The notes beneath the pieces are model-generated. The model saw only the letters and a program-made list of their open reading frames with translations, had not been told where the DNA came from and did no database searches. 64,000 bases of DNA from Cellulomonas sp. WB94 (GTDB taxonomy: Bacteria; Actinomycetota; Actinomycetes; Actinomycetales; Cellulomonadaceae), in NCBI RefSeq assembly GCF_003115775.1, contig NZ_QEES01000005.1:124001-188000 (forward strand), given 5' to 3'. Both the position numbers and the translations under genes were made by a program. Every line of letters starts with the position of its first letter. The first letter of the stretch is position 1. Shown in pieces: positions 1-14,584 of this stretch.

Positions 1-292
1 AAGGATCGGCGCGCCCTCCGGTTCACTCACGGATCGAGCGGCTGAACGCCCGGCCCGCGCGCCACAGCCCGTCGCCGGCGACTCCTTCCCGACGCCGGTC
101 GGCGCCCGGTTTTCCTGATGGGGCTCACATGCTCAGCGCAAGCTCGGGATCGACGGCGGTAGGACAGCCACGCTCGAACCGCATGCGCTCGACAACTGAC
201 ACCACATGCCATGGGTCCGCATCGACGGCGGCCCGCTGACCTCGGTCCGGGGGGACATCGCACGCTCTGGTCCCGAGCTCATGCCTGGGAGC
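1..292. other. No recognisable gene
   Basis: I see no ORF with family-level similarity in this stretch. It is the upstream side of the copper island and ends at the first tandem-repeat box (293-312). The window boundary cuts off any context further left. Confidence 0.4.
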
Positions 293-312
293 GAACCTTC
301 AGCGAATCTCCA
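293..312 (-). promoter_or_regulatory. CopR-like tandem box A
   Basis: Read on the minus strand, this site is TGGAGATTC-GC-TGAAGGTTC: two 9-bp units separated by 2 bp. The layout matches the CopR box known from Corynebacterium glutamicum (TGAAGATTT-N2-TGAAGATTT, from memory) and the three other full boxes in this window. It lies about 150 bp upstream of the DUF2933-like gene at 465. That the local OmpR-type regulator binds here is inference. Confidence 0.6.
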
Positions 313-464
313 TCGACGCTGAGCAGGACGTATATGTCCGTGCAGTTGCATGACCGGTAACCGGAGGAATCTCCGGTGCGCGGCCGCGGCCGACTTGGGG
401 CGCATAGCCCCGTCGGGTGGACGTTGCCGCGGTCGTCGTCGACACATCACGGGACGGGTAGATC

Positions 465-794
465 ATGAAGCACAGCGGCGCGGGCCACCTCAAGGGGATG
501 GCACTGATAGCGGGCGGGGCCTTCGTTGTCCTCCTCCTGCTCGGCAAGCCGGCCGGCGAAGCCTTCAGCTACGCCCTGGCTCTCGCATGCCCGCTGATGA
601 TGGTCGGCATGATGTTTGGCGGGCACGGTGGGCACGGTGGCAGCGAGGACAACGCCGGACATGACGGTCATGCAGGTCACGGTGGCGCAAGGGGTAGCGA
701 GACAGATCTCGGCGCGCGGCAGGCTGTCCCGGGAGACACCGGGATCATCGACGCCCCCGCGACGAGCGATCGCGCCCAGGGCCACCACCACTAG
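465..794 (+). CDS. DUF2933-like small His/Gly-rich membrane protein
   Basis: This 109-residue protein has one or two hydrophobic segments (about residues 10-45). They are followed by a LACPLMMVGMM motif and a GGHGGHGG stretch, then a His/Gly/Asp-rich hydrophilic tail ending in GHHH. The LACPLM...GGHGGHGG pattern is typical of DUF2933 proteins, small membrane proteins often found beside copper or silver efflux genes. The His-rich tail suggests metal binding, but no function is established. A CopR-like box lies upstream at 293-312 and the Lgt-like gene follows on the same strand. The ATG at 465 is chosen because the hydrophobic segment starts soon after it; the ribosome binding site is weak. 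Confidence 0.7.
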   Translation: MKHSGAGHLKGMALIAGGAFVVLLLLGKPAGEAFSYALALACPLMMVGMMFGGHGGHGGSEDNAGHDGHAGHGGARGSETDLGARQAVPGDTGIIDAPATSDRAQGHHH

Positions 795-918
795 CCGCTC
801 TGGCTCGTGACGTCGGCGACGCCTGCGTGGAGACGCTCAGGCGTTTCCACAGCGGCTGGTCGACTCATTCGACGACGCCTAGCGGCCTCGGTGTCGGAGC
901 CGTGCGCTGGCTACCGCT

Positions 919-961
919 GCATCTTCATTGAAGAACCATCGATCCTGTGGACGAACCTTCA
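919..961. promoter_or_regulatory. Degenerate CopR-like half-sites
   Basis: Three copies of the TGAAG core occur here: TGAAGATGC read on the minus strand (919-927), TGAAGAACC on the plus strand (929-937) and TGAAGGTTC on the minus strand (953-961). None forms a clean 9-2-9 tandem. The cluster is 70-110 bp upstream of the Lgt-like start, so it may be a decayed or alternative regulator site. Confidence 0.3.
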
Positions 962-1029
962 TTTCACCCGGCGACGATGTAGCGGGTTCGGACCTGTGCG
1001 ACCGCATCAGACCCCGCCGTATACCCCCG

Positions 1030-1842
1030 ATGATCGGAGACCTTGTGCGTCCGGTGCTGTTCTCGATCTTTGGCCTTGACTTCTCGTCCTACGGCGCAAG
1101 CAAGGCTATTGCCGCGCTTGTCGCGGCGTACCTGCTCGGCCGCGCTTTCGAGCGAGTCGGACTCCGCCGTGACTCGGCCCACTCGCTCGTGCTGTGGGCC
1201 ACCGTGTGGGGCTTTGTGGGCGCGAAGATCTACTACCTCCTCGAGCACATCGACACCCTCAGCCTGCATCATTTTGGTGGGATGGGATTCACCTGGTATG
1301 GCGGCCTCATCGGCGGTGTCATCGCCGCTCTCGTCATCATCCGACGCCACCATCTTCCGCTCGGAGTTGTCGCCGGCGCCACGGCCATTCCGCTGACTCT
1401 TGCCTACGGCATCGGGCGCATCGGCTGCCTGCTCTCCGGCGACGGCACCTACGGCAAGCCGACCTCGCTGCCCTGGGCCATGACGTTCTCCAGCGGAGTT
1501 GTCCCCACGACCGTCCCCGTTCACCCCACTCCCCTGTACGAGGCCTTGGCGTCGCTCGTGATCGCCGCCGTGCTGTGGGCGCTTGCCCGACGGTGGAACC
1601 CTCCGACCATCTTCGGCGCCTACCTGATCCTCAGCGGGATCTCACGGTTCCTTGTCGAGATGCTGCGCATCAATGAACCTGCGCTCTTCGGCTTGACCCA
1701 GCCTCAGCTGTGGTCGATCGTCTCGATCGCGGCCGGCGCTCTACTGATCGCCCGCACGAACCGCTCGATCGGCGCTCGGACGACAGTCGCGGCGGGCACT
1801 GAGCCCCTGATCACCGAGAGCTCGTCAGCCTCCCGCGGATGA
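1030..1842 (+). CDS. Prolipoprotein diacylglyceryl transferase family (Lgt-like) paralogue
   Basis: This 270-residue polytopic membrane protein has about seven hydrophobic segments and Lgt-family landmarks: a YGGLIGG motif, a YGIGRIGCLL motif followed by a GDGTYG stretch, VHPTPLYE, and RFLVEMLR near the C terminus. Canonical Lgt moves diacylglycerol from phosphatidylglycerol to the lipobox cysteine of prolipoproteins. Here the usual HGGL motif is YGGL and the conserved Asn after GRIG is Cys, so it looks like the second, non-canonical Lgt type rather than the housekeeping enzyme. The ATG at 1030 is preferred over the in-frame ATG at 928 because the extra residues are not Lgt-like. It sits inside the copper island behind degenerate regulator half-sites. 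Confidence 0.75.
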   Translation: MIGDLVRPVLFSIFGLDFSSYGASKAIAALVAAYLLGRAFERVGLRRDSAHSLVLWATVWGFVGAKIYYLLEHIDTLSLHHFGGMGFTWYGGLIGGVIAALVIIRRHHLPLGVVAGATAIPLTLAYGIGRIGCLLSGDGTYGKPTSLPWAMTFSSGVVPTTVPVHPTPLYEALASLVIAAVLWALARRWNPPTIFGAYLILSGISRFLVEMLRINEPALFGLTQPQLWSIVSIAAGALLIARTNRSIGARTTVAAGTEPLITESSSASRG

Positions 1843-1933
1843 CTGGCCCCTCGGGTCTGCGCATGGCCTTCCGGGGCGGCTGCAGGTGTGGTCCGAGGTA
1901 CGGAGACCACGGGCAGGCGGGCGAGTCAGGCGT

Positions 1934-2047
1934 CTCGGCGATCAGGTTGGTGGCCTCGGTCCCGTCGTTGGTCACGCCGCCGGAGTCGACGTAGGCCAGG
2001 ACCTGGGCCCGCCAGGCTCGTAGGGTTCGTCCGAGGCGAGCGACTCG
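1934..2047 (-). pseudogene. ISL3-family transposase C-terminal remnant
   Basis: A 38-codon stretch reads VARLGRTLRAW followed by DSGGVTNDGTEATNLI. This corresponds to the conserved C-terminal part of ISL3-family transposases (R-LGRTL--W---L-Y---GG-SN--TEA-NL-I). Flanking sequence is out of frame and unrecognisable, and no terminal repeats could be found. It is a small relic of an element that once sat between the Lgt-like gene and the thiol-redox operon. Confidence 0.6.
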
Positions 2048-2429
2048 GGGATGGGCCAACTGGGCAGGTCTGCGAAGAGGTCGGCAGCGACGCGCTCGCC
2101 GGTGGCCGCTGGTGCGCCGGCGGTGGATCAAGCCCACCGCGCTGACAGCAGCTCCCGGCGATGGTCACCCGCCGGGCCAGGCCGTCGACCTCCAGAGCTG
2201 TGGAGAGCCAGGCCGCCTGGCGTGTGCTGTCCGCTGAGCAGGTCGACGCGCTTGGTCGACCACGGCCGTTGCGAGCGTGACCACGGGTATCGCCTTCAGC
2301 ACTGCGACGTTGTCTGACGTCTGGGACAGCCGCGTGACTCTCGGGCGTCGCGACGGCGCCTCGCGCATCGATGGAGATGCGGAGGCGCCCTACGAGGCAT
2401 CCGGACACTCCGTGAGACAGGCGCAGCCC

Positions 2430-2516
2430 GTCTTCAGCAGGCTTCTGTCGCTCCCGCCCGCCGCCGTACTGGTCTGCTCACTGATGATGGTCGGGATCGT
2501 ATGCATGAGCAACGGC
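2430..2516 (+). pseudogene. Possible second DUF2933-like remnant
   Basis: The reading here contains VLVCSLMMVGIV, which resembles LALACPLMMVGMM of the gene at 465. At DNA level the two share a run around ctgatgatggtcgg. The His/Gly tail is absent and the frame is otherwise featureless. This may be a decayed duplicate of the small metal-associated gene, but chance similarity of a short hydrophobic stretch cannot be excluded. Confidence 0.3.
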
Positions 2517-2830
2517 CGACGGAATTCTGGAAAGCATGCAGGCCGTCATCGTGCTGGGCCGTCCAGGCATGCCGACGCGAGCCGATAGGCACGCGGCACA
2601 CAGCTGCGCCGCCCAGCTTCAGCCGGGCGGCGCGGGTCGCAGACTGCGAGGTGTCGCTAATTGCGGACTTCTGCAACCGCAGCTTCTGTATTGTCATGTC
2701 CGCAGGCACATGCGTGGGTCGATTCGAGCTTCACCGTGCCACTCGAGCAGCACGTCGCGTCGTCCGTGCGATTGTTGCAGCAGTCATCCATGAGGGTCTC
2801 CGATTGTTGGGGAATGGTGCGCTGGACAGC

Positions 2831-3457
2831 TCAGAGTCGCGCCTTGACCTCGGTGAGCAGGTCGGCGGGTGCGATCCACATGGAGGGGTAGTCGGCGGAC
2901 CACTTCTGGACGCCCTGGGCGTCGATGAGGACGAAGCCGTGGCCGGGCAGGCCCTCGTGCATGCCCTTGCCGAGGGTGTCGTAGGCCTTGGACGTGGTGC
3001 CGTCGTCGAGAAGGAACGGGGTCGTGACCCCGAGCCGGGTCATGTCGGGGGTGATCTGCGCGGCGGTGTTCATGACGATGGGCAGGACCTTGATGCCGGT
3101 CGCGGTGAAGGCCGGGTCGCTCTCGATCTTGGCCATCTGCACCAGGCAGGCGTCGCAGCCGGCCCCCTCGCTGAAGTACAGGAGCACGGGCGTACCGCGC
3201 AGGGACGCCAGCGAGATGCTCGTGCCGTCGGTCGCCGGGAGGGTGAACTCGGGTGCCGTGCGCGCCTCGGAGGACTGCGTCGGTCGCGCGGACACCAGCC
3301 CGGCCACGACGAGGCCGACCACCACGAGCAGTCCCGTCGTCCAGGCGATGATCGCCAGCCGTCGACGCCGCGCGGCCGCGGCCCCCTGCTGCTTCTTGGC
3401 CGCATCCAGCGCGGCCTGGCGCTCGTGCTCGCGTCTGCTGGCGGTCCCGGAGGTCAT
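2831..3457 (-). CDS. Membrane-anchored thioredoxin-fold (TlpA/AhpC-like) protein
   Basis: This 208-residue protein has a charged N terminus, one transmembrane anchor (about residues 34-56) and an extracytoplasmic thioredoxin/peroxiredoxin-like domain. The domain starts at APEFTLPATDG and carries a CDAC motif near residues 101-104. Such proteins reduce disulfides on the outer face of the membrane, usually with electrons from a CcdA-type transporter. The ATG at 3457 overlaps the stop of the ccdA-like gene as ATGA, which decides the start. It is the last gene of a three-gene minus-strand operon behind CopR-like box B, suggesting that it protects or reduces secreted thiols under copper stress. 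Confidence 0.8.
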   Translation of the reverse strand: MTSGTASRREHERQAALDAAKKQQGAAAARRRRLAIIAWTTGLLVVVGLVVAGLVSARPTQSSEARTAPEFTLPATDGTSISLASLRGTPVLLYFSEGAGCDACLVQMAKIESDPAFTATGIKVLPIVMNTAAQITPDMTRLGVTTPFLLDDGTTSKAYDTLGKGMHEGLPGHGFVLIDAQGVQKWSADYPSMWIAPADLLTEVKARL

Positions 3458-4395
3458 CGACCACTCCCTTGGCTTGTCGAGGTGTCGTGGCACGACGGGG
3501 CGTCGTCGCCATCTGTGGGCACATCACCCGTCGGCCGGACGGGGCGTCGGTGCCGGCCGACCAGCGTGGCCCAGACGAACACGGCCGCGAGGGCCAGCAG
3601 GGCGAGTCCCAGCACCGGCTCGGTCCACCGTTGGATCCGCAGGAAGACGTCGGCCAGGGCCTGGCCCGCGGAGGCCTGGAAGGCGGTCCCGCCGGTCATG
3701 TCGGCACTGCCGGCCAGCGCGATGATGAAGCCGCCCATGACGACGAACGCGACCGCGACCCCCACGTTGAGCGTGTTCGTCACCAGGAGCCTGGCGCCCA
3801 GGCGGATGCGGACCAGCTTCGCCCGGAACAGCTTGCGCTCCCCCAGCCGCGCCCGGTCCCACAGCAGGGCCATGACGAACAGCGGGAAGACCATGCCGAA
3901 CACGAACGCCAGCCCGAGCGCGAGGCCGCCGATCGCCGACCCGGACAGCGCGGACAACGTCATCACCCCGACCAGGACGGGGGCGCAGCAGCTGGACGCG
4001 ATCCCCGAGAAGACCCCGAGGGCGAAGAAGCTCGCCGAGTCCCCCCGCGTCGTGTCGGGCGTGCGCATGACGCTGGGCAACGACCACATCTTCCCCGACA
4101 GCGCCAGGAGCGCGAGGACGATCATCAAGGTCCCGCCCGCGTAGTACAACGGCGCGTGGTAGCGGGCGATCGCCCCCGCGAGCAGGCTCATCCCCATGGT
4201 CAGCGGGACCAGGACGAGCGCCAGGCCGGCGGCGAAGATGAACGTCAGCGGCAGCAGTCGCCACAGCCGGTTCTTGACGGCACCGGCCAGGTAGCTCGGC
4301 GCGAGGAACACGATGCAGCAGGGTGCGAACAGCGCCACCCCACCGGCGAAGAACGCCGCGATGATGCTGCCGGTCGTGAGCAGGTCGGCTCCCAC
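3454..4395 (-). CDS. CcdA-type thiol-disulfide electron transporter
   Basis: This 313-residue protein has about seven or eight hydrophobic segments. Paired cysteines occur in the first segment (FAPCC, Cys26/27) and in a later one (SSCCAP, Cys136/137), the arrangement expected of CcdA/DsbD-beta proteins that carry reducing equivalents across the membrane. The C-terminal tail of about 35 residues is hydrophilic. The gene is 3 bp downstream of the glutaredoxin-like gene and overlaps the thioredoxin-fold gene by 4 bp, so the three probably form one electron path: cytoplasmic thiol, membrane carrier, external thioredoxin. CC pairs instead of single cysteines could also bind metal; that is speculation. 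Confidence 0.82.
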   Translation of the reverse strand: MGADLLTTGSIIAAFFAGGVALFAPCCIVFLAPSYLAGAVKNRLWRLLPLTFIFAAGLALVLVPLTMGMSLLAGAIARYHAPLYYAGGTLMIVLALLALSGKMWSLPSVMRTPDTTRGDSASFFALGVFSGIASSCCAPVLVGVMTLSALSGSAIGGLALGLAFVFGMVFPLFVMALLWDRARLGERKLFRAKLVRIRLGARLLVTNTLNVGVAVAFVVMGGFIIALAGSADMTGGTAFQASAGQALADVFLRIQRWTEPVLGLALLALAAVFVWATLVGRHRRPVRPTGDVPTDGDDAPSCHDTSTSQGSGR

Positions 4396-4398
4396 GAC

Positions 4399-4722
4399 TC
4401 AGTGCCCCACCGGCGCGGCGCCCGTGACTGCGTCGAGCGCCGCCACGGACGTGCGAGCGGCGAGCAGCCGCATGAACTTCTTGCGCGGCAGGCGGCCCGA
4501 GCTGAAGTACACCCCGTCGACCAGCACCAGTGGGTTCATGGCAGGACGGTGCAGATCCACCAGGCTGCGACCCTCCGCGGAGTCGAGCGGGACCACCCGC
4601 ACCGCGAGCGCGAACTGCTCGGCCAACCCGGCGAGCTCACGCTCGGCCTCGTCGCAGAAGTGGCACGCCTCGGCGTGGACCACGGTCACCGGGATCGGTG
4701 ACGTGTCGAGCTGAACCACCAC
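4399..4722 (-). CDS. Glutaredoxin/thioredoxin-like protein
   Basis: This 107-residue protein starts with a beta strand (VTVVHAEAC) leading into CHFC at about residues 20-23, then an alpha helix rich in Glu and Ala, then a VRVVPLDS strand and NPLVLVDGVYFSSG. This is a glutaredoxin-type fold with a CxxC active site and a cis-Pro-like NP. A GTG at 4722 is preferred as start because GGAGG lies 5 bp before it. It is the first gene of the redox operon, with ccdA immediately downstream and CopR-like box B about 75-95 bp upstream. It could supply electrons to, or take them from, the CcdA-type protein. Confidence 0.75.
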   Translation of the reverse strand: MVVQLDTSPIPVTVVHAEACHFCDEAERELAGLAEQFALAVRVVPLDSAEGRSLVDLHRPAMNPLVLVDGVYFSSGRLPRKKFMRLLAARTSVAALDAVTGAAPVGH

Positions 4723-4795
4723 GAGAGCCTCCTGCGCGCGTCGGTCGGACACCCCACCTTCGACCCGCACCCCTGCTCAACCGATCGACGTTCGA

Positions 4796-4815
4796 TCAAG
4801 ATCCGATGAAGACTT
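4796..4815 (+). promoter_or_regulatory. CopR-like tandem box B
   Basis: The site reads TCAAGATCC-GA-TGAAGACTT on the plus strand, two 9-bp units with a 2-bp gap. It is located 74 bp upstream of the GTG start of the minus-strand redox operon (4722). Geometry and core agree with boxes A, C and D. Confidence 0.65.
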
Positions 4816-4891
4816 CCTGTGGCACCCAGCGCGGATCGCACGGCGCACGTCGCACGAGGACGCACTCGGACTCGGACCGGGACTGTCGGAC

Positions 4892-5122
4892 TTAGATCGA
4901 CGTGCGGGCGGGACGGTCCAGCTCGGACCGGATCCGCTCGTAGGTCGCCAGGTCGATCGTCCCGGCCGCGAGGCGGGCGTCGAGCACAGTGAATGAATCG
5001 TCGTCCGCTCGCGCTGGGAAGAGATGAGCGACCCCCCACACCACCAGACCCACCACGAGGACCCAGAGGGCGACCATCGCGATCCAGCCACCCACGCCCG
5101 TCTGCGCGCACCACAGGCTCAC
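4892..5122 (-). CDS. SHOCT-domain small membrane protein
   Basis: This 76-residue protein has one transmembrane helix (GWIAMVALWVLVV and following residues). It ends in a SHOCT domain of the form LDARLAAGTIDLATYERIRSEL, a short C-terminal motif common in small bacterial membrane proteins. The GTG at 5122 is chosen because GGGGAG precedes it. An upstream in-frame start at 5203 would put codons against box C. It is divergent from copZ, with a CopR-like box between them, so joint copper control is likely. The molecular role of SHOCT proteins in copper operons is not known to me. Confidence 0.75.
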   Translation of the reverse strand: MSLWCAQTGVGGWIAMVALWVLVVGLVVWGVAHLFPARADDDSFTVLDARLAAGTIDLATYERIRSELDRPARTSI

Positions 5123-5209
5123 AGCCGTCTCCCCACCGTCGCAACCGGTACCCAGCGGCACCTGACACCCACGGTCCGGGCCCGCCATCAACAACTGACC
5201 CACGAACGA

Positions 5210-5229
5210 TGAAGAGTTGCTGAAGATCC
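5210..5229 (+). promoter_or_regulatory. CopR-like tandem box C (copZ/SHOCT divergent promoter region)
   Basis: The site is TGAAGAGTT-GC-TGAAGATCC on the plus strand, the best match in the window to the tandem CopR site (both units carry TGAAGA). It lies between the divergent SHOCT gene (start 5122) and copZ (start 5355) and could control both. Confidence 0.75.
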
Positions 5230-5354
5230 TCGCCTAAGCGCTCCACATCGCCGGCGGTGCGTCCCGGCGGGCCTACCGTCGAAAGGCGGCGCGAGGATCC
5301 GTGGCGATGCACCGCGAGACCGCCCGCGCCAGCCGACCGAAATGGAGTCCAACT

Positions 5355-5573
5355 GTGACGACTGCCACGACCTACGACGTCGCCGGGATGACCTGCGAGC
5401 ACTGCGTGCGCGCCATCACGACCGAGGTCAGCGCCCTCGGATCTGTGGACGACGTTGCGGTCGACCTGCCACAAGGACGCGTCACGGTGATCTCGACGGC
5501 ACCGTTGGAGCTGGCGACGGTGCGGGCAGCGATCGACGCCGCCGGCTACGAGCTGACCGGCGTCCACGCGTGA
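5355..5573 (+). CDS. copZ: Copper chaperone, heavy-metal-associated (HMA) domain
   Basis: This 72-residue single-domain protein has the HMA metal-binding loop GMTCEHC (Cys14, Cys17) and the beta-alpha-beta-beta-alpha-beta pattern ending in IDAAGYEL. CopZ-type chaperones carry Cu(I) in the cytoplasm and pass it to the CopA ATPase. The GTG at 5355 is chosen because GGAG lies 7 bp upstream; an earlier in-frame ATG at 5301 would add a non-conserved extension. Its stop overlaps the GTG of the following mini-gene, and copA follows at 5681, so the three are probably one transcript starting downstream of box C. Confidence 0.88.
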   Translation: MTTATTYDVAGMTCEHCVRAITTEVSALGSVDDVAVDLPQGRVTVISTAPLELATVRAAIDAAGYELTGVHA

Positions 5574-5668
5574 CGCGCGCCGCGATCGGGACGCTTGTTC
5601 TCTATGCCCTTGCCCTCGCTGCCGCCTTCACGCTTGCGTACGTCCTCGGCGTCGCACTGCGGCCTTGA
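5570..5668 (+). CDS. 32-residue single-helix membrane mini-protein
   Basis: A 32-codon gene starts with the GTG that overlaps the copZ stop (GTGA) and ends 12 bp before copA. The product is almost entirely one transmembrane helix (AIGTLVLYALALAAAFTLAY, then VLGVALRP). The helix resembles the N-terminal membrane segment of longer actinobacterial proteins sometimes encoded near copper ATPases, so it may be a truncated relative or a true small subunit. Translational coupling at both ends argues that it is expressed. No function can be assigned from sequence. Confidence 0.6.
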   Translation: MTRAAIGTLVLYALALAAAFTLAYVLGVALRP

Positions 5669-5680
5669 GGAGGCGACACG

Positions 5681-7996
5681 ATGGCAGAGATCGAGACGGC
5701 CGCCGTGACCGCCGCCCGCTCCGTGGAGCTGACGATCGGTGGGATGACCTGCGCGTCGTGCGCCGCTAGGATCGAGAAGAAGCTCAACAAGGTGGTCGGC
5801 GTCTCCGCGACGGTGAACTTCGCCATGGAATCGGCGAAGGTGAGCTACGCCGATCACGTCACCATCGCCGACCTCGTCGCCGCCGTCGAGGAGGTCGGCT
5901 ATACCGCAGCTCCTCCGGCCGCTCCAGAAGCGCGCACTGCGGGCGAACCGGACGCGCCCGTCCACGACGCGGTGGACGCCCTGCGTGATCGGCTGACGAT
6001 CTCCGCAGTGCTGACCGCACCGGTCTTGGCGCTGGCGATGGTGCCCGCGCTTCAGTTCGACAACTGGCAATGGCTATCTCTCACGTTGACGGCGCCTGTC
6101 GTCGTCTGGGGCGCCCTGCCCTTCCATCGTGCGGCTCTCAAGAACTTGCGCCACGCCAGCGCCACGATGGACACGCTCATCTCGATGGGAGTGACTGCCG
6201 CGTTCGGCTGGTCGCTGTGGGCTCTGTTCGTGGGCGACGCGGGGACACCGAGCATGCGGATGGGCTTCACGCTCATCCCCCAAGCCGGGTCGGGGACCAG
6301 TGAGATCTACCTCGAGATCGCTGCTGGACTGACCGTGTTCATCCTGCTGGGCAGGTATTTCGAGGCCCACGCCAAGCGTCGGTCCGGTGCGGCCCTTCAT
6401 ACGCTCCTCGAGATGGGCGCCAAGGACGTCGCGGTGCTTCGCGCGACTCCTGACGGCGACACTGAGCACCGCATCCCGATCGAAGAGCTCGGCGTCGGCG
6501 ACCGATTCGTCGTTCGACCCGGCGAGAAGGTCGCGACGGACGGCGTTGTCGTCGAAGGCACTTCTGCCATCGATGCCGCTCTCTTGACGGGAGAATCGGT
6601 ACCGGTCGAGGTCGCACCCGGCGACACAGTGACCGGGGCAACCGTGAACGCCGGCGGACGCTTGGTTGTCCGGGCGACTCGTGTCGGAGCGGACACCCAG
6701 CTGGCCCAGATCGCGCGACTCGTCGTGGATGCCCAGTCCGGCAAGGCGGCAGTCCAGCGTCTGGCAGATCGCCTGTCAGCAGTCTTCGTGCCGATCGTGA
6801 TCGGCCTCGCAGTCGTCACGCTCGGGTTCTGGCTCGGTCGAAGCGGTGAACCAGCAATTGCGTTCACCGCAGCCGTGGCAGTCCTGATCATCGCGTGCCC
6901 ATGCGCGCTGGGACTCGCGACACCTACCGCACTTCTCGTCGGCACGGGTCGCGGAGCCCAGCTCGGGATCTTGATCAAGGGCCCAGAGGTGCTCGAGTCC
7001 ACCCGCAAGGTCGACACGATCGTTCTGGACAAGACGGGAACGGTGACGACGGGGAAGATGTCGCTCGTGCACGTCGTGCCCGCGACCGGTGTCGACGCCA
7101 CCGAGGCACTCCAGCTCGCGGCAGCACTTGAAGATGCATCTGAGCACCCCATTGCCGCTGCGATCGTCGCGGCAGCGCGGGAGGCAGGGATTGCTGTCCC
7201 TGCCGTGGAGGGATTCCTGTCGACACCCGGCCAGGGAGTGCGCGGATCCATCGGCGGACGCGAGGTACTCGCCGGCCGAGCCACGTGGCTCATCAGTCAG
7301 GGTTCTCCGGTGCCAGTCGAGCTCGTCGCTGCGCTGGACGAGGCCGAGCAGGCCGGGCGCACAGCGGTGCTGACCGGCTGGGATGGCGCGGCGCGCGCAG
7401 TGCTTGTCGTTGCGGACACCATCAAGCCCACGTCCGCCGAGGCGATCGCACAGCTCAGAGCCCTGGGGCTCAAGCCTGTGCTTCTGACCGGGGACAACGA
7501 TCGCGCGGCCCGCGCCGTGGCCGGCCAGCTGGGGATCGACGACGTCTTCGCGGAAGTCCTCCCCGAGGACAAGGTGGCTGTCATCACACGGCTGCAGGGA
7601 GAGGGACGCGTCGTCGCCATGGTGGGCGACGGGGTCAACGACGCCGCCGCATTGGCTCAGGCAGACCTCGGCCTGTCGATGGGAACCGGAACCGATGCCG
7701 CCATCGAGGCATCCGATCTGACCCTGGTGCGTGGAGACCTACGGACAGCTGCGGACGCCATCCGTCTGGCTCGACGCACCCTCGCCACCATCAAGGGCAA
7801 CCTGTTCTGGGCGCTCGCCTACAACGTCGCTGCACTTCCCCTGGCGGCCTCGGGTCGACTCAATCCGCTGCTTGCTGGCGCCGCCATGGCCTTCTCCAGT
7901 GTCTTTGTCGTGTCCAACTCCCTGCGCCTGCGACGCTTTGCGGCCTGGTCCACCCTGGACGCCCAGACCGCCGACTCGCCTGTTCCCCACGCGTGA
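5681..7996 (+). CDS. copA: Cu(I)-exporting P1B-type ATPase CopA
   Basis: This 771-residue protein pumps Cu(I) out of the cytoplasm using ATP. Domains in order: one N-terminal HMA domain (GMTCASC, Cys24 and Cys27), two plus two membrane helices, the actuator domain with TGES, the CPC transport motif in IACPCALG (about residues 404-411), the phosphorylated DKTGT (Asp450), the SEHP nucleotide motif, the GDGVNDAAAL hinge, and final helices with YN and MAFSS. The CPC plus YN plus MxxSS set marks the Cu(I) P1B-1 subgroup. A strong ribosome binding site (GAGGAGG) lies 7 bp before the ATG. It is the last gene of the copZ operon and is followed by the two-component system. Confidence 0.95.
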   Translation: MAEIETAAVTAARSVELTIGGMTCASCAARIEKKLNKVVGVSATVNFAMESAKVSYADHVTIADLVAAVEEVGYTAAPPAAPEARTAGEPDAPVHDAVDALRDRLTISAVLTAPVLALAMVPALQFDNWQWLSLTLTAPVVVWGALPFHRAALKNLRHASATMDTLISMGVTAAFGWSLWALFVGDAGTPSMRMGFTLIPQAGSGTSEIYLEIAAGLTVFILLGRYFEAHAKRRSGAALHTLLEMGAKDVAVLRATPDGDTEHRIPIEELGVGDRFVVRPGEKVATDGVVVEGTSAIDAALLTGESVPVEVAPGDTVTGATVNAGGRLVVRATRVGADTQLAQIARLVVDAQSGKAAVQRLADRLSAVFVPIVIGLAVVTLGFWLGRSGEPAIAFTAAVAVLIIACPCALGLATPTALLVGTGRGAQLGILIKGPEVLESTRKVDTIVLDKTGTVTTGKMSLVHVVPATGVDATEALQLAAALEDASEHPIAAAIVAAAREAGIAVPAVEGFLSTPGQGVRGSIGGREVLAGRATWLISQGSPVPVELVAALDEAEQAGRTAVLTGWDGAARAVLVVADTIKPTSAEAIAQLRALGLKPVLLTGDNDRAARAVAGQLGIDDVFAEVLPEDKVAVITRLQGEGRVVAMVGDGVNDAAALAQADLGLSMGTGTDAAIEASDLTLVRGDLRTAADAIRLARRTLATIKGNLFWALAYNVAALPLAASGRLNPLLAGAAMAFSSVFVVSNSLRLRRFAAWSTLDAQTADSPVPHA

Positions 7997-8121
7997 GGCC
8001 ATCGCGACGCACCGAGCGCACGACGTTCATCCGAAGTGGCATTGCCGAGAATGGACTCAACAGTGACCTGTCTCCCTGACGTGCGAGTCAACGCCAGTAT
8101 TCGACCGCACGGGTCGGCACA

Positions 8122-8868
8122 ATGGGCCCCATGACGCCGGCGCCCGCCGCGGGGCCCGCTGCCCATCGCGCTCTCGTCGTCGACGACGAGGAGCCGCTGG
8201 CCCGGTTGGTGGCCGGCTACCTGGAACGTGACGGGTTCGAGGTGCACGTGGCGTTCGACGGTCTCGATGCCCTGGAGCTGGCCAGGTCGGTCGACCCGGA
8301 CGTCGTCGTCCTGGACCTCGGCCTGCCGGGCATGGACGGCGTCGAGGTCTGCCGCGAGCTGCGGACCTTCTCCGACTGCTACGTGGTGATGCTCACGGCA
8401 CGCGCGGACGAGGTCGACACCCTCATCGGGCTCGCGGTGGGTGCCGACGACTACGTGACCAAGCCGTTCAGCCCGCGTGAGCTGACGGCGCGCGTCGGCG
8501 TGATGCTGCGCCGGCCCCGACGGTCGACGGCAGGTACCCCAGGCCCCGAGAGCGCGCCGCCCGCACCACCGCTCGTGATCGGATCTGTCTCTATCGACAC
8601 CGTTGCTCGCGAGGTGCACGTCGACGGGACCCTCGCTGACCTGACCCGCACCGAGTTCGACGTCCTTGCAGCCCTCGCGAGCCGACCTCACATGGCCTTC
8701 AGTCGACGCGCGCTGATCGAGGCGGTCTGGGGTGACCACTGGGTCGGCGACGAGCACCTCGTCGACGTCCACGTCCTGCACGTCCGGCGCAAGCTCGGGG
8801 ACACCGCCGAAGAGCAGCGCTTCGTGCGGACCGTGCGCGGGGTGGGTTACCGCATGGGTCAGGGCTGA
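8122..8868 (+). CDS. copR: OmpR-family response regulator, probable copper regulator
   Basis: This 248-residue protein has a receiver domain (acidic pair DD at 21-22, phospho-acceptor Asp65 in VVLDLGLPG, Thr in MLTA, Lys in VTKPF). After a Pro/Ala linker comes a C-terminal winged-helix DNA-binding domain ending in VRTVRGVGYRMG. It overlaps the histidine kinase start as TGATG, the classic two-component arrangement. Context (copA upstream, tandem CopR-like boxes at four neighbouring promoters) makes it the likely binder of those boxes. A second ATG at 8131 is an equally possible start. No clear box is seen before this gene itself. Confidence 0.85.
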   Translation: MGPMTPAPAAGPAAHRALVVDDEEPLARLVAGYLERDGFEVHVAFDGLDALELARSVDPDVVVLDLGLPGMDGVEVCRELRTFSDCYVVMLTARADEVDTLIGLAVGADDYVTKPFSPRELTARVGVMLRRPRRSTAGTPGPESAPPAPPLVIGSVSIDTVAREVHVDGTLADLTRTEFDVLAALASRPHMAFSRRALIEAVWGDHWVGDEHLVDVHVLHVRRKLGDTAEEQRFVRTVRGVGYRMGQG

Positions 8869-9998
8869 TGGTCGCCCCGGACCCGCGACGAGGCCGGTCC
8901 GGGCTGGCCTCCCGGCTCCTGGCAGCCATCGCGCTCGTGGTGGTCACCGCCGGCGTCACCGCCTGGCTGGTTGCCGGGGCGATCGGACCTGCGACGTTCC
9001 ACAGCCACATGCTCCAAGCCGGTGCGAGCCACGACCCGGTCGCGGTGCTGCACGCCGAGGAGGCGTTCCGGTCGGCCAGCGCCCTCTCGCTGACCGTGGC
9101 CCTCGCGGCGGCGGTCCTGGCCGCGCTCGCCGTCAGCCTGTTCCTGACCCGGCGCATCGGCAGGTCCCTGGCGGCCTTGTCGACCGCCGCCGCGCGGGTG
9201 GCCGGTGGGCGGTTCGACGCCCACGTCACCAACCCCCACCTGGGGGTCGAGTTCGACGAGCTCGCCGATGCGTTCAATGCCATGTCGGCGCGCCTCCACG
9301 ACTCCGAGGCGCTCCGGCAGCGCCTGCTCGCCGACGTCGCCCACGAGCTCCGCACCCCGGTGGCGACCCTCACGGCCTACCTGGAGGGACTGGAAGACGG
9401 TGTCGAGTCGCTGACTCCGGCGACGGTCGCGGTCCTGCGCGCGCAAGCCTCTCGCCTGACCCTGCTCGCCCACGATCTCGCCGCCGTCACTCAGGCCGAG
9501 AGCGGCGAGCTCGTGCTGCAGCGCGCGCTCGTCACCCCGCAGGAGATCGTCGCAGCGGCCACCCTGTCCGCCGGCGACCGGTTCGCGGCACGCGGCGTGG
9601 AGCTCACCAACAGTGTCGACCCCGACCTGTCGCCGCTCGACGTAGACCGCGACCGCATGGGACAGGTGCTCGGCAACCTCCTCGACAACGCACTGCGACA
9701 CACACCCCCCGGAGGGGTCGTGACTGTCAGCGCCCGATCCGTCGACCCCGGGGCGGTGCGGATCGTCGTCGAGGACACCGGGGAGGGCATCGACCCCCAG
9801 CACCTTCCCCACCTCTTCGAACGCTTCTACCGGGTCGACACCGCCCGCGACCGCACCCACGGCGGCTCGGGCATCGGGCTCGCGATCACCAAGGCGCTCG
9901 TCGAAGCCCACGGCGGAACCATCACTGCCACCAGCGCCGGACCCGGCCACGGCAGCCGCTTCGAGATCCTCCTCCTGGCAGCCAACGCCGCCAGCTGA
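8868..9998 (+). CDS. copS: Sensor histidine kinase, probable copper sensor
   Basis: This 376-residue membrane kinase has a first helix at about residues 17-39, a short extracytoplasmic sensor loop of about 35 residues rich in His and Met (FHSHM and VLHAEEAF), a second helix at about 68-91, HAMP, a dimerisation H-box (DVAHELRTP) and a HATPase domain with DNALRHTP, DTGEGI and a GGSGIGLAI G-box. The tiny His/Met loop fits direct sensing of metal outside the membrane, which is inference. It is translationally coupled to the response regulator. Confidence 0.87.
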   Translation: MVAPDPRRGRSGLASRLLAAIALVVVTAGVTAWLVAGAIGPATFHSHMLQAGASHDPVAVLHAEEAFRSASALSLTVALAAAVLAALAVSLFLTRRIGRSLAALSTAAARVAGGRFDAHVTNPHLGVEFDELADAFNAMSARLHDSEALRQRLLADVAHELRTPVATLTAYLEGLEDGVESLTPATVAVLRAQASRLTLLAHDLAAVTQAESGELVLQRALVTPQEIVAAATLSAGDRFAARGVELTNSVDPDLSPLDVDRDRMGQVLGNLLDNALRHTPPGGVVTVSARSVDPGAVRIVVEDTGEGIDPQHLPHLFERFYRVDTARDRTHGGSGIGLAITKALVEAHGGTITATSAGPGHGSRFEILLLAANAAS

Positions 9999-10408
9999 GG
10001 CGGACGGGTCGAGAAGGTGCGGCCCACCGTCGCAAGCCGCTCCTCGACGTGTTTACAGGTGCGCATCCCCTGGTCCGCCGCCTTCTTGATCGAACCTTCA
10101 TCGCAAGTTGATCGGAAGCGATTCGTCGATGCCGATCCTTGATAGGAGGTCACGCAGGACGATTCACGATGGCGGTCGACACCGCGTCGAGGCGATGCCG
10201 TTGCTCGCCGTTCAGTCGCTGCACGACAAGGCCGACAGGACGGAGCAGAGTCATCGAATCGCAGCCCTCCTCCCCGGATGGTCCACATCGAACATGCCCG
10301 GTCGAGCCCGGTGAGGCAACCCTTACGCGACGCTCCCTGCGCGAGGCGTCGCGGTCGCCGGGTGGTCACGCACAGCGCTCGTCAGGCGTTGACCCTGACC
10401 ACTCGGGA
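9999..10408. other. Intergenic region with regulator box
   Basis: There is no convincing gene between the kinase and the VanY-like pseudogene. The only recognised feature is CopR-like box D at 10081-10100. Confidence 0.5.
10081..10100 (-). promoter_or_regulatory. CopR-like tandem box D
   Basis: Read on the minus strand the site is TGAAGGTTC-GA-TCAAGAAGG, again 9-2-9. It lies about 310 bp upstream of the proposed start of the VanY-like gene, in the space after copS. It could control that gene or an unseen transcript. Confidence 0.55.
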
Positions 10409-11151
10409 ATGCGAGACAGGACCGGCCCTCAGCGAGCGGGCCGCGGCCTTGGCCGCTTGGGGCGGGGCTCCGCGCGCACGGTCCTGCTGCTGGCCCTGGT
10501 GATCTCGATCTCCGGCACCGCCTACCGGGTTGGCACTGCTCCGGCGGCGGCTCAGCCGCAGGCCCGCGCAACAATCAGCACCGTTGACGCCCTCTCGGTC
10601 CAACTCGCATTCACTCCACCGTCCTCGCTCGCCGCTCCGAGCCCCGGACCATCAGCGGTCGAACGAGCGTCGCGCGGCGTCGAGCGAAGCGCGATTCCCG
10701 GCTGCGACGGGATAGCGACCGGCAAGGGCACCAATGGTCGGCTCCCACCGTCCGAGCTGTGCGACCTCTGCATGCCCCATACAAGGCCCGCGCTGACGCC
10801 GCAGTCACCCTGATCGCACTCAACGGCGCCTACTTCGCACGGTTCGGTACCGACATCTGCTTGAGCTCCGGATACCGAACGTTTGAACAACAACTCGCGC
10901 TTCGCGCTGCCAAGGGCGCAATCGCGGCGGGCGCAGGTCAGAGCAACCACGGCTGGGGGCTCGCCGTCGACCTGTGCCCTGCCGCCTACGCGGGCACCCG
11001 AGGCGTGTGGCTCCACGACGTGGGCCGGGCATATGGATGGGCGAATCCGGCCTGGGCCCATCGCGGCGGCGGCGGATCCTATGAACCGTGGCACTGGGAG
11101 TACGTCCCGGGAGTTGACGCCCTCACGGCCGGTGGCGGCGCAGACTCCTGA
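10409..11151 (+). pseudogene. VanY-like M15 peptidase (D-Ala-D-Ala carboxypeptidase), frameshifted
   Basis: The first part encodes a positively charged N terminus, a membrane anchor (RTVLLLALVISISG), a low-complexity linker, and PGCDG...NGRLPPSELCDL, the usual start of the actinobacterial VanY domain. The reading frame then shifts near 10769. The next frame continues with HAPYKARADAAVTL, the FGTDICLSSGYRTF motif, SNHGWGLAVDLC and EPWHWEYV, the zinc and catalytic motifs of M15B peptidases. Restoring one base (a Trp codon, TGG, after CDL) rebuilds a continuous protein. This is either a real single-base deletion or a sequencing error. If intact it would trim peptidoglycan peptides outside the membrane. 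CopR-like box D lies upstream. Confidence 0.75.
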
Positions 11152-11460: not shown

Positions 11461-12360
11461 TCACGCGGCGGTGGCCAGCGTAGCCGCGTAGTGGGTGTTC
11501 TCGTAGGTGATGGGGCTGAGGTAGTCGCAGTAGGAGTGGCGGCGGCGGGTGTTGTAGCGGGTGATCCACGCGAACACGACCCGACGTGCGGTGGTCGCGT
11601 CGGGCCACCCGTGGGAGCCGGCGAGGGTCTCGCGCTTGAGGGAGGCGTTGAAGGACTCGGCCATTGCGTTGTCCGCAGAGGTCCCCACGGCGCCCATGGA
11701 GCGGGTCACGCCCAGCCGCTCGCAGAGCGCGGTGTAGTCCTTGGCGACGTACTGACCGCCGTGGTCGCTGTGAAAGATCGCCCCGGCCAGCGACCCGCGT
11801 TCTCGGGCGGCTGCGCGCAGGGCGTCGGCGACCAGGTCGGTGCGCATGTGGTCGGCGATCGACCAGCCGACCAGGCGCCGGGAGTAGCAGTCGATCACGG
11901 TGGCCAGGTAGAGGAACTGCCCGGCCCCGCAGGGCAGGTAGGTGATGTCCCCGACGTACTTCGTGTTCGGTGCGTGGGCCGTGAAGTCACGCTCGAGCAG
12001 GTCCGGGACCAGCTGGCCGTCCGGGTCGGGCACGGTGGTGCGCACCCGTCGGCGCAGCCGGATCCCGGCGATGTGATGGGCGCGCATCACCCGGGCGACG
12101 CGCTTGTGGTTGACACGCTCCTGCTCGCCGGCGCCGTCGTTGAGCTCGGCGGTGATCCGCGGCGCCCCGCACGCACTGTCGGTGGCGTGCACCGCGGCGA
12201 TCCGCGCGGCCAGGGCCGCATCGGCCGTCTGGCGTGCCGCGCGGGCCGGGGCTGCGGACAGCCATTTGTAGAACGAGGACCGTGCGACCTGAACGACCTG
12301 GCACAACCGCTTCACCTCGAAGGTGGACTGGTGGTCGGCGACGAACTGGAAGCGGCTCAC
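11461..12360 (-). CDS. IS3-family transposase orfB (DDE integrase)
   Basis: This 299-residue protein has an N-terminal HTH_21-like segment (RSSFYKWL) followed by an rve integrase core. The DDE residues are visible in YVGDITYLP (first D), HSDHGGQYVA (second D) and NAMAESFNASLKRE (E). The ATG overlaps the orfA stop as ATGA, so orfB can be translated by coupling as well as by frameshifting. Length is normal for the family and no damage is seen. Confidence 0.92.
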   Translation of the reverse strand: MSRFQFVADHQSTFEVKRLCQVVQVARSSFYKWLSAAPARAARQTADAALAARIAAVHATDSACGAPRITAELNDGAGEQERVNHKRVARVMRAHHIAGIRLRRRVRTTVPDPDGQLVPDLLERDFTAHAPNTKYVGDITYLPCGAGQFLYLATVIDCYSRRLVGWSIADHMRTDLVADALRAAARERGSLAGAIFHSDHGGQYVAKDYTALCERLGVTRSMGAVGTSADNAMAESFNASLKRETLAGSHGWPDATTARRVVFAWITRYNTRRRHSYCDYLSPITYENTHYAATLATAA

Positions 12361-12686
12361 CAGTTCGTCTCCCCGGCGAAATACTTCGCCGCCGCGCGCA
12401 AGATCTCCCGCTCGGTGCTCAGCTTGCGCTCGGAGTCCTCCAGCTCACGCACCCGCGAGCGAAGTCGCACGAGCTCCTGCTCGGGTGTCTCACCCGGCGG
12501 CGGGGCCGTCGATGCCGGCCGGGACTGCCCGCGGATCGCCACCCCAGCGGCCTTGATCCAACCCGACAGGGTCGTGTCCATGATCCCCAGATCAGCCGCG
12601 ATCCCCGCGACCGTCGCTGTCGGCGTCGAGCGGTACAGCTCGACCGCATCGCGGCGGAACTCCGCCGAGTACGTCTTCCTCGCCAT
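12357..12686 (-). CDS. IS3-family transposase orfA (HTH)
   Basis: This 109-residue protein starts MARKTYSAEFRRDAVELY, the typical helix-turn-helix of IS3 OrfA. It then has a Pro-rich linker and a C-terminal leucine-zipper-like helix with regularly spaced Leu and Glu (VRLRSRVRELEDSE). It binds the terminal repeats and dimerises with OrfB. The start at 12686 is preferred over an upstream in-frame one because the family begins at MARK/MPRK. Confidence 0.88.
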   Translation of the reverse strand: MARKTYSAEFRRDAVELYRSTPTATVAGIAADLGIMDTTLSGWIKAAGVAIRGQSRPASTAPPPGETPEQELVRLRSRVRELEDSERKLSTEREILRAAAKYFAGETNW

Positions 12687-12814
12687 GATCAGATCTTCTC
12701 GCTTCCTCCAGGCCAGACCTGGAATCAGCGTGTCCACCCTCAGGGGTCAAGGCCCTACCACCTGATCAGAGGCACAATCGGCGAACGTGAAGCCGTTCCA
12801 TTCCGCACCCCTAC

Positions 12815-12884: not shown

Positions 12885-14584
12885 CTAACCCGGATCTTTC
12901 ATGGAGCTCGGTCGGTCTGGAGCGCGGCGTCGTTGTCGGCGTTCGGTGCTGATTGTGGCATCGGGGTGCGACGAAGGGCCGCGTGTCGTCGCGGTGGGCG
13001 CCGGTTCCGGCCGGTCGTGCGGGTGCTGGTGGCGGTCAGAGACGAGGTCGACGGCTCAGGGCGGGGCGGGTAGGGCGGTCAGTCGTTGGTGACCGGTGGT
13101 CAGGACCTCGGCCCAGGGGTGGGTGTCCTTGACGTGCAGGATCAGGGTGCGGGCGTGCCGGGCCAGCGTCGCGGGCACGTGCAGGAGCCGGGTTCGTAGG
13201 CGTTTGGGTTCCCAGCGGCGGGCCGCGGTGGTGGCGAACGCGAGCAGCTGGGTCCAGGCCGTCAGGTCCGAGGCCAGTGCCACGATCGCGCACCAGATCT
13301 GGTTGGCGCCGAAGTTCTTCAGCGGCAGGTTCCGCAGTCCTGTGTCTTTGGCGGCGCGGATCCGGTCCTCGCAGCGGGCGCGGCGGCGGTGCCGCAGCTC
13401 CAGGTCCTGCAGCTGCCCGGTCGTGGTGTTCGTGACGAACGCGGTCAGCCGGTAGCCGCCCGCGTCGTCCAGGCGCCCCTGGGACACCCCGGCTCCGGGG
13501 TGGGGTCGTTCGCGGCGCACGATCACGCGCATGTGGGCCGGCCATCCGCCCAGGTGGCCGCCGGCGGCGAGCAGGTCGGTGATGTCGGCGACGTCCGCGC
13601 CGTCGCGGGCCGCACCGTCGCCGTTGAGGGCCGCCGTCCAGGCCGCCGGGGGGATCTGGGCGTAGATGCCCTGCATGTGGGCCCACGGCAGGGTCCACCC
13701 GATCGAGTAGGAGACCCCGCGGCCGGCCAGCCAGGTGACGTAGTCCTTCGTCCCGCCACCGCCGTCGGTGCGGATCAGGACCTTGCGACCTGGGCGGGAG
13801 GGGTTGATCCCGGGGACAGCGGCCAGCGCGGCGCGGGTGACCTCGATGTGGTCCGCGGCGGTGTTCGAGCCCGCGTTGCCCGCCCGCAGGCTCATCGCCA
13901 GCAGCTCGCCGGTTCCCTCGGCGCCGTGGTCGGCGAACGCGCACAGCGGGTGGAACCCGAAGCCCCGCTTGAACGTCGGGGCGGCTTGATCCTTCTCCGA
14001 GTGGGCGGTGATCAGCGTGGCGTCCAGGTCGATCACCAACGGCGCGGCAGCGCTGATCTGGTGCGTCGGGGCGTGCTCGCCGGCCGCGGCCCAGACCGCG
14101 GCCCGGGCCTGCTTCCTGGCCCGGGCGATCTGGGCCAGGACCTTGTCCGCATCGACCCCCAGCGCCGCCACCGCCCGGGAGACCGTCGCCTCGGAGGCCA
14201 CCGACCCGAACAGCTCTGCCTCGCCGCGCAGCAGCGCGGCGTCGGCCAGGCAGTCCCCGCCCAGCACCAGCGCCACCGCGAGATCAGTCAGGACCTTCGC
14301 GGGGTCGTGCACCGCGAACGGTGAGCGCCACCGGTCCAACGCCTGCGACAGCGCGACGTCCAGACCCGCGGCCCGCACCGTCTGGGTCAGCAGCACCCCG
14401 CCGGCCGATCCGGCCGCGGCCACCGGCGCAGCATCGACTCGGACACGCGGGTAGAACCCGATAGCGTTCACCTGGAAGGTGCTCCTCGAACTGGTCTGAT
14501 CTGTCCCTCGCAAGACACATCATCCCAGGTCAGGAGCACTTTCCTCGTCTACGCCACGACCGCGCCGTGAAATCTCCAGGCTAA
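12885..14584 (-). mobile_element. IS1380-family insertion sequence with CTAA target duplication
   Basis: The element runs 12889-14580 (1692 bp) with terminal inverted repeats CCCGGATCTTTCATGG (left) and, read inwards from the right end, CCTGGAGATTTCACGG. It is bounded on both sides by the direct repeat CTAA (12885-12888 and 14581-14584). Four-base duplications are normal for IS1380. The single transposase is intact. It inserted next to the tRNA fragment and in front of the relaxase remnant. Confidence 0.88.
13056..14513 (-). CDS. IS1380-family transposase
   Basis: This 485-residue DDE transposase shows an N-terminal VRVDA segment, the catalytic region VIDLDATLITAHSEK (first D), a FGFHPLCAF motif typical of IS1380, LIRTDGGGGTKDYV (second D) and a C-terminal RCEDRIRAAKDTGLRNLP region. 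Size and motif order are normal. It occupies nearly all of the element, as expected for this family. Confidence 0.9.
   Translation of the reverse strand: MRGTDQTSSRSTFQVNAIGFYPRVRVDAAPVAAAGSAGGVLLTQTVRAAGLDVALSQALDRWRSPFAVHDPAKVLTDLAVALVLGGDCLADAALLRGEAELFGSVASEATVSRAVAALGVDADKVLAQIARARKQARAAVWAAAGEHAPTHQISAAAPLVIDLDATLITAHSEKDQAAPTFKRGFGFHPLCAFADHGAEGTGELLAMSLRAGNAGSNTAADHIEVTRAALAAVPGINPSRPGRKVLIRTDGGGGTKDYVTWLAGRGVSYSIGWTLPWAHMQGIYAQIPPAAWTAALNGDGAARDGADVADITDLLAAGGHLGGWPAHMRVIVRRERPHPGAGVSQGRLDDAGGYRLTAFVTNTTTGQLQDLELRHRRRARCEDRIRAAKDTGLRNLPLKNFGANQIWCAIVALASDLTAWTQLLAFATTAARRWEPKRLRTRLLHVPATLARHARTLILHVKDTHPWAEVLTTGHQRLTALPAPP

Follow-up and report, generated by a model that had tools for sequence, protein, structure and literature searches.

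Among described systems, the closest to the one examined here is the CopRS two-component system of Corynebacterium glutamicum (cg3285/cg3284). The accessible parts of the reports on it describe a single CopR box between copR and a divergent operon (PMC3140484), and an effect on copper and on none of the other metals tested (PMC3140484, PMC3353115). Plasmid pLEW279b is reported to be 97% similar to the C. glutamicum cop region (PMC3140484, as far as its accessible text goes). The present analysis concerns a copper gene island in a 64,000-nucleotide stretch of Cellulomonas sp. WB94 (contig NZ_QEES01000005.1, here C5; C5:124001-188000), hereafter the window. A preliminary description had noted four tandem repeats in this stretch and read them as CopR-like boxes joining the island into one regulon. 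Judged from sequence comparison, the boxes are very probably operators of a CopR-type OmpR-family regulator and form an expanded CopRS regulon. What is known, so far as the accessible reports go, as a copper-sensing switch at a single promoter of a single species probably commands a much larger set of genes.

The repeats of 9 bp-2 bp-9 bp are all present, at 293-312, 4796-4815, 5210-5229 and 10081-10100, and seven of their eight half-sites read TSAAGR; the observation is borne out except at site 1, which is off by one base. The boxes and their associated -10-like elements are as follows.

Window 1..4, plus strand: last four bases of the box C5:123988-124004, exact match TGAAGATCCGATCAAGG, with a -10-like pair at 34 bp.
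293..312, minus strand: site 1, a weak box upstream of the DUF2933 gene, TGGAGATTC-GC-TGAAGGTTC, one mismatch.
4756..4761, minus strand: -10-like element GAAGGT, 34 bp from site 2.
4796..4815, plus strand: site 2, box for the Grx-CcdA-TlpA operon, leftwards, TCAAGATCC-GA-TGAAGACTT, exact match.
5171..5176, minus strand: -10-like element GACCGT, 33 bp from site 3.
5210..5229, plus strand: site 3, box between the divergent SHOCT-like gene and copZ, TGAAGAGTT-GC-TGAAGATCC, exact match.
10081..10100, minus strand: site 4, box past the end of copS, directed towards the VanY-like gene, TGAAGGTTC-GA-TCAAGAAGG, exact match.
10134..10139, plus strand: -10-like element GATCCT, 33 bp from site 4.

The whole genome (3.87 Mb, seven contigs) was searched with the pattern TSAAGR-N5-TSAAGR, using the reversed pattern as a control. 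Nine exact matches were obtained against three for the control, and eight of the nine lie at copper genes (C2:2661331, C2:2661420, C5:117403, C5:119271, C5:123988 and window 4796, 5210 and 10084). These eight comprise sites 2 to 4, three boxes upstream of the window on C5 and two at a second copper locus on C2. Of the C5 boxes upstream of the window, one is 38 bp from the called start of the DUF3105 gene downstream of it and another 85 bp from a multicopper oxidase gene, likewise downstream; the third precedes copZ2, a minus-strand gene outside the window with copA2 and csoR after it. The two C2 boxes occupy the interval separating copR2 from a second Grx-CcdA-TlpA operon, beyond which comes a copper-type ATPase gene. 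When the gap was allowed to vary from 0 to 14 bases, 121 places were found; among the 100 listed, which end on C4, the sole 5-base gaps are those of the two C2 copper boxes. The motif is concentrated at copper genes genome-wide, the opposite of the missing enrichment that the preliminary description had named as grounds for refuting its reading, and it recurs at CopR loci in relatives.

The ninth exact match (C7:117089; L015:7089-7105) is flanked by a transporter gene and by the SHOCT-like gene belonging to a CopR-like operon, and has no -10-like pair at 33-34 bp. This box may be a chance match, but it was not set aside as such, because it stands about 1.1 kb from a CopR-like regulator gene (C7:115227) and carries a third half-site 22 bp away. 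The surrounding region, L015 (C7:110001-124000), holds the CopR-like pair together with the SHOCT-like gene.

Recurrence was assessed in 79 loci of relatives collected with the window's response regulator, CopR1, as the query (best 80 of 428 kept), the nearest named ones being from Cellulomonas and Actinotalea. The exact pattern occurs 99 times in 59 of these 79 loci and the reversed control not once in 1,037,114 bases.

Features that the search does not impose were examined in 107 distinct boxes (113 before duplicate removal; L100 excluded). The gap bases are conserved, mostly TTCG[A/C], and the base preceding the box is A in 73%, giving the consensus A-TSAAGR-TTCG[A/C]-TSAAGR. In 73 of the 107 a -10-like A-N3-T pair begins at a distance of 33 or 34 bp, against 3.9 expected from the other offsets, and it stands on the side facing away from the direction in which TSAAGR reads; the best other offset gives 10, and the other side at most 9. 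The pair is present at all eight exact boxes of the C5 and C2 copper loci. Additionally, 18 of the 107 boxes have a third half-site TSAAG at 22 bp on one side; the neighbouring offsets give 4 and 3, and no other offset more than 3.

Since the 33/34-bp offset had been found by scanning 47 offsets on both sides, it was tested on further boxes from other genomes of the family, 35 distinct boxes in all (36 matches, one an identical duplicate). The pair is present at 10 of 14 new boxes within 20 kb of CopR, at three of four boxes already seen, at three of nine far from CopR and at one of eight in genomes lacking CopR. One of the far boxes that carry the pair (G014:C1:3857866, L110) stands before a multicopper oxidase gene; copR is 1.08 Mb away on this contig, which makes the oxidase gene a candidate for control at a distance.

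Co-occurrence of box and regulator was examined in 61 genomes of the family. A strict 18-base pattern yielded 10 matches in six genomes (control 0), too narrow for counting, and the looser form TSAAGRNYYGNTSAAGR was therefore used. It is present in 13 of 15 genomes with a close CopR homologue and in 6 of 46 without (Fisher P 3.4e-7); with the Cellulomonas sp. WB94 genome itself excluded, 12 of 14 CopR genomes have it (P 9.4e-7). Control matches total seven over all 61 genomes, and in the other CopR-bearing genomes 19 of 28 box matches lie within 20 kb of CopR.

The window genes and the domains or identities on which their names rest are listed here.

465..794, plus strand: DUF2933 gene (PF11666, E-value 1.7e-5, above cut-off).
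1030..1842, plus strand: lgt-like gene, prolipoprotein diacylglyceryl transferase (PF01790).
2831..3454, minus strand: TlpA/redoxin-like gene, third of the thiol-redox operon (PF00578; 57% to the annotated redoxin of plasmid p110066).
3454..4395, minus strand: CcdA-like membrane thiol-redox gene (67% identity to the annotated CcdA of Cellulomonas plasmid p110066).
4399..4725, minus strand: glutaredoxin-like (Grx) gene, first of the operon (47% over 93 residues to the annotated glutaredoxin of p110066).
4892..5203, minus strand: SHOCT-like small membrane protein gene, an open reading frame (ORF) with the real start probably inside it.
5355..5573, plus strand: copZ, HMA copper chaperone (PF00403, E-value 8.3e-16).
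5681..7996, plus strand: copA, P-type copper ATPase, an ORF with an HMA match at C5:129729-129905 and a homologue of the relatives' CopA-type ATPases.
8122..8868, plus strand: copR, response regulator CopR1, receiver and Trans_reg_C domains (PF00072, PF00486).
8868..9998, plus strand: copS, sensor kinase CopS1, with a short outer loop FHSHM...HAEEAF (PF00672, PF00512, PF02518).
10139..11151, plus strand: VanY-like gene, frame interrupted (PF02557 in 10759-11148).

The window Grx and CcdA proteins have no Pfam match, and their names rest on the identity to p110066; the SHOCT-like protein likewise has no Pfam match above the cut-off and is named from the preliminary description and from homologues (PF09851 in 5 of 70 promoter-proximal proteins). 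The right edge of the island is marked by two transposase-like genes, named from ORF reading, with an IS3-type pair at 11461-12737 and another at 13056-14513.

Which genes the boxes serve was tested gene by gene in the relatives' loci, requiring a box at most 350 bp upstream; the reversed control never matched. Boxes precede CopZ in 10 of 17 cases, SHOCT-like genes in 16 of 28, DUF2933 in 3 of 6, multicopper oxidase in 3 of 7, Grx in 14 of 38, CopR in 20 of 81, Lgt in 3 of 13, ATPase in 5 of 27 and CopS in 1 of 80. No box was found within this distance of the 34 CcdA, 33 TlpA, 7 CsoR, 5 DUF3105 and 2 cupredoxin-like genes, several of these types being inner operon genes. Orientation is fixed: the box reads in the same direction as CopR (20/20 boxes) and CopZ (11/11), and opposite to Grx (14/14) and SHOCT-like genes (19/19). 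Site 2 likewise reads opposite to Grx, and site 3 opposite to the SHOCT-like gene and in the same direction as copZ.

A -10-like pair is present at 74 of the 109 boxes with a downstream ORF. When these ORFs were compared with 19 reference proteins, CcdA or Grx lay downstream of 16 of the 74, and 58 of the 109 were unmatched, 31 of them among the 74; our first codon-position gene picker mislabels some antisense ORFs. Domain scanning covered 70 of the 72 distinct proteins encoded there, leaving aside a piece of CcdA and an implausible ORF from the window, and found 8 DUF305, 8 multicopper oxidase, 5 SHOCT, 5 DUF2933, 4 DUF6803, 3 LGT, 3 M23 peptidase and 3 DsbD-type membrane proteins, among others.

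The preliminary description had counted Grx/CcdA/TlpA, SHOCT and VanY as unexpected regulon members. For Grx/CcdA/TlpA and the SHOCT-like gene, membership is well supported by the recurrence of upstream boxes in relatives. TlpA was not unexpected, since tlpA (cg3289) already belongs to the C. glutamicum CopR regulon according to the accessible text of PMC3140484.

VanY membership is weakly supported. Site 4 and its -10-like pair stand upstream of the gene both in the window and in locus L017 of Cellulomonas sp. KJC.2, where the box is followed at 39 bp by the start of an intact VanY-domain protein of 337 residues. Compared with that protein, the window frame is broken, with the N-terminal part and the VanY domain in two frames, and the layout is seen elsewhere in this closest relative alone. 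In the 350-bp test none of 7 VanY domains had a box, but the test is unsuited to this gene because distance is taken from the domain start, which leaves it blind to a promoter before the N-terminal part. The VanY-like gene may once have been a regulon member, as two close relatives suggest.

Site 1 had been placed on a par with the other three. With one mismatch permitted in a slightly narrower pattern, the genome gives 27 matches (18 of them one-mismatch) against 13 for the reversed control; this near-control rate makes site 1 background by its sequence alone, barring other evidence. A -10-like pair at 33-34 bp was looked for and is absent, unlike at the eight exact copper-locus boxes. Its equality with the other boxes was rejected on these three grounds: mismatch, background rate and missing -10-like pair. 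By itself, this box before the DUF2933 gene is not separable from chance, although three of six DUF2933 genes in relatives do have a box. The lgt-like gene has no exact box in the window.

Lgt/Lnt and several cell-wall enzymes (M15, C40 and a DD-metalloendopeptidase) are annotated in the copper island of plasmid p110066 (L097:15548-32411), and genes for the cell wall and for lipoproteins seem to be carried along with copper genes.

CopR1 combines a receiver with an OmpR-type DNA-binding domain and is 54% identical over 249 residues to CopR of pLEW279b; CopS1 has HAMP, HisKA and HATPase domains and 45% identity to its pLEW279b counterpart. CopR1 and CopR2, the regulator at the C2 locus, are 89-90% identical. 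The CopS1 loop FHSHMLQAGASHDPVAVLHAEEAF, with three histidines, matches in layout the C. glutamicum loop LFHDHMLMTGREDPSLELFHAEQAYRDAN given in the accessible part of PMC3353115, and the motif FHxH[ML] is found in 56 of 78 kinases across the 79 loci. The copR1 start may be the ATG at 8131, about 8 bp past CACAAT (window 8100-8135), which suggests a leaderless transcript and recurs in several relatives.

At copR, pLEW279b carries TGAAGATTTGATGAAGGTTT, which equals 19 of 20 bases of the C. glutamicum box as published in the accessible text. As called on the plasmid, the copR start leaves the box just within the gene; this start looks to be placed too far upstream, because the published box lies 59-78 bp before copR (PMC3140484, accessible part). 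A second box on pLEW279b (L096:6273-6289) precedes a four-helix-bundle copper-binding gene; for the C. glutamicum cop region the accessible text reports one site.

The geometry of the repeats had been taken as a pointer to CopR. Direct repeats of 11 bp are general in this regulator family, Mycobacterium tuberculosis PhoP using 7-bp repeats with a 4-bp spacer (PMC4832192, accessible text), and geometry alone is generic; the telling links to CopR are the half-site sequence, the sensor kinase loop and the gene context. The preliminary interpretation is supported in part: motif concentration and recurrence favour its core, one CopR-like regulon over the copper genes, and site 1, VanY and the geometry argument are among its weaker parts. 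The computed support for the regulon consists of motif concentration, conserved orientation, conserved gap, locked spacing and recurrence at CopR loci, and the boxes are in all likelihood functional, an expanded variant of a known system. From these patterns we infer the identity of the binding protein, copper as the signal, and activation rather than repression.

Several observations weigh against this reading. The exact box is missing from 20 of the 79 CopR-homologue loci, including loci of Mycobacterium and Mycolicibacterium, and two same-genus genomes (G016 and G055) have CopR homologues and no box of the looser form. Chromosomal copA (C2, 1.56 Mb) has no exact box. copR1 has no box in its own upstream gap within the window; it could be transcribed by read-through from copZ-copA, and a box in the divergent copR promoter is present at the C2 copy. 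The FHxH[ML] motif shows no association with box presence (44 of 56 loci with it against 14 of 22 without, P 0.25), and the sensor motif was rejected as a predictor of the box. Related loci are not independent, so the counts overstate certainty. Finally, the genome encodes four CopR-like regulators; the two besides CopR1 and CopR2, at C5:110501 (RR3) and C7:115227, are about 60% identical, and could bind some of the boxes.

Three other explanations were weighed. It is unlikely that the boxes serve a response to some other envelope or thiol stress, with the thiol-redox operon as main target and the copper genes merely included. Grx-CcdA-TlpA is among the most frequent box targets, and M23 peptidase, Lgt, VanY-like and DUF6803 genes also lie downstream of boxes, as such a response would have it; against it, boxes repeatedly neighbour genes for multicopper oxidase, CopZ, copper ATPases, DUF2933 and DUF305, and the metal specificity reported for C. 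glutamicum CopRS in the accessible texts (PMC3140484, PMC3353115) points to copper.

It is very unlikely that the boxes, though real, chiefly serve a different regulator from this subfamily with overlapping specificity, such as the RR3 pair or the C7 pair. The number of CopR-like regulators and the exact C7 box, with its third half-site so near the C7 regulator gene, fit this explanation. CopR1 and CopR2, however, have the same recognition-helix region, VGDEHLVDVHVLHVRRKL, from which RR3 (FGEDRIVDIHLGHVRHKL) and the C7 regulator depart, the 79 box-pattern loci were gathered with CopR1 and not RR3, and the SHOCT-like/RR3 operon on C5 has no box upstream. The RR3 locus itself (L013:6498-8404; C5:110498-112404) lies downstream of cupredoxin-like and SHOCT-like genes, and its kinase loop reads FQSHL, not FHxHM.

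Chance matches and generic promoter sequence, with copper gene clustering mimicking an association, are extremely unlikely to account for the boxes: although the motif is short and degenerate, its one-mismatch matches are at background level and TSAAG-type half-sites are common in coding sequence, this explanation is already contradicted by the 99 matches against none in relatives, the -10-like spacing with its held-out support, the conserved gap and orientation, and the co-occurrence with CopR.

Under control by CopR, CopR1/CopS1 and the C2 pair would sense copper outside the cytoplasm through the short histidine loop F-H-x-H-M ... H-x-E, and phosphorylated CopR would bind the tandem half-sites head-to-tail. 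The main direction of transcription would be opposite to the reading of TSAAGR. With a weak -10 element following the box at 33-34 bp, bound CopR may replace the missing -35 contact and thereby activate transcription. Some promoters, a minority, have an additional half-site two turns (22 bp) closer to the -10 element, and divergent genes such as copZ or copR would flank the box on its opposite side. The proposed regulon comprises the Grx-CcdA-TlpA operons (C5 and C2), SHOCT-like genes, copZ-copA, copZ2-copA2-csoR, the multicopper oxidase and the DUF3105 gene.

CsoR is a cytoplasmic copper repressor that controls operons of the copZA type. A CsoR family gene (PF02583, E-value 1.5e-29) lies at L013:16483-16761; it is adjoined by short ORFs (L013:15625-16409) that resemble pieces of a broken P-type ATPase gene. 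A palindrome TACCCC...GGGGTA (TACCCCCCGGGGGGTA-type), which we take to be CsoR-operator-like, stands at L013:19928, about 60 bp from the box C5:123988-124004. Such a palindrome lies within 250 bp of a box in seven scanned loci, this copZ2 promoter (copZ2-copA2-csoR) included.

These elements can be joined in one tentative picture, to which we give slightly less than an even chance: CopRS as the centre of a large, partly mobile copper regulon of Actinomycetes. A directional module, built from two half-sites (in some cases three, the extra one 22 bp away) and a weak -10 element at a fixed 33-34 bp, would allow any gene that carries it to be recruited. Grx-CcdA-TlpA would be its most constant output, an outer line of thiol repair rather than export alone. 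At the copZ-copA promoters, activation by CopR from outside and derepression by CsoR from within would act together as a two-signal gate. If the module holds, copper regulons would become readable from sequence in many actinomycetes and plasmids, and so would the functions of the adjoining DUF2933, DUF3105, DUF305, SHOCT-like and DUF6803 proteins. This matters for a regulator reported, in the accessible C. glutamicum text, to have a single genomic site. The sensing mechanism of CopS, called unclarified in the accessible part of PMC3353115, would gain a conserved three-histidine motif.

Among the matches listed in a search of the open-access literature, no paper on a CopR box outside C. glutamicum was found. 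With the PhoP/OmpR/PhoB family, as far as the accessible text describes it, the present boxes share 11-bp head-to-tail repeats and differ in half-site sequence and target genes. CsoR systems are matched in the csoR gene and the operator-like palindromes; the difference is that the operator-like site here stands beside a CopR box (seven loci), whereas chromosomal copA has the palindrome alone.

The likeness to C. glutamicum CopRS, as described in the accessible reports, extends to an OmpR-type regulator, a two-helix kinase with a loop of about 30 residues and three histidines, and tandem TGAAG-type 9-bp repeats 2 bp apart. It also includes a box between copR and a divergent operon, as at the C2 locus, and multicopper oxidase, TlpA and copper ATPase as targets, the oxidase being box-bearing here as well. 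The half-site core and spacing of the TGAAGATTT-nn-TGAAGATTT operator are found at sites 2 to 4 and at five other boxes, and inexactly at site 1. By the same accessible accounts, the two systems differ in the outer and gap bases (ATTT in C. glutamicum, TTCG-type here) and in the number of sites, one being reported there and eight boxes standing at copper loci on two contigs here. Additional targets here are Grx-CcdA, SHOCT-like, DUF2933 and DUF3105 genes, with DUF305 and Lgt in relatives, and the locked -10 spacing and occasional third half-site are further distinguishing features of the present system.

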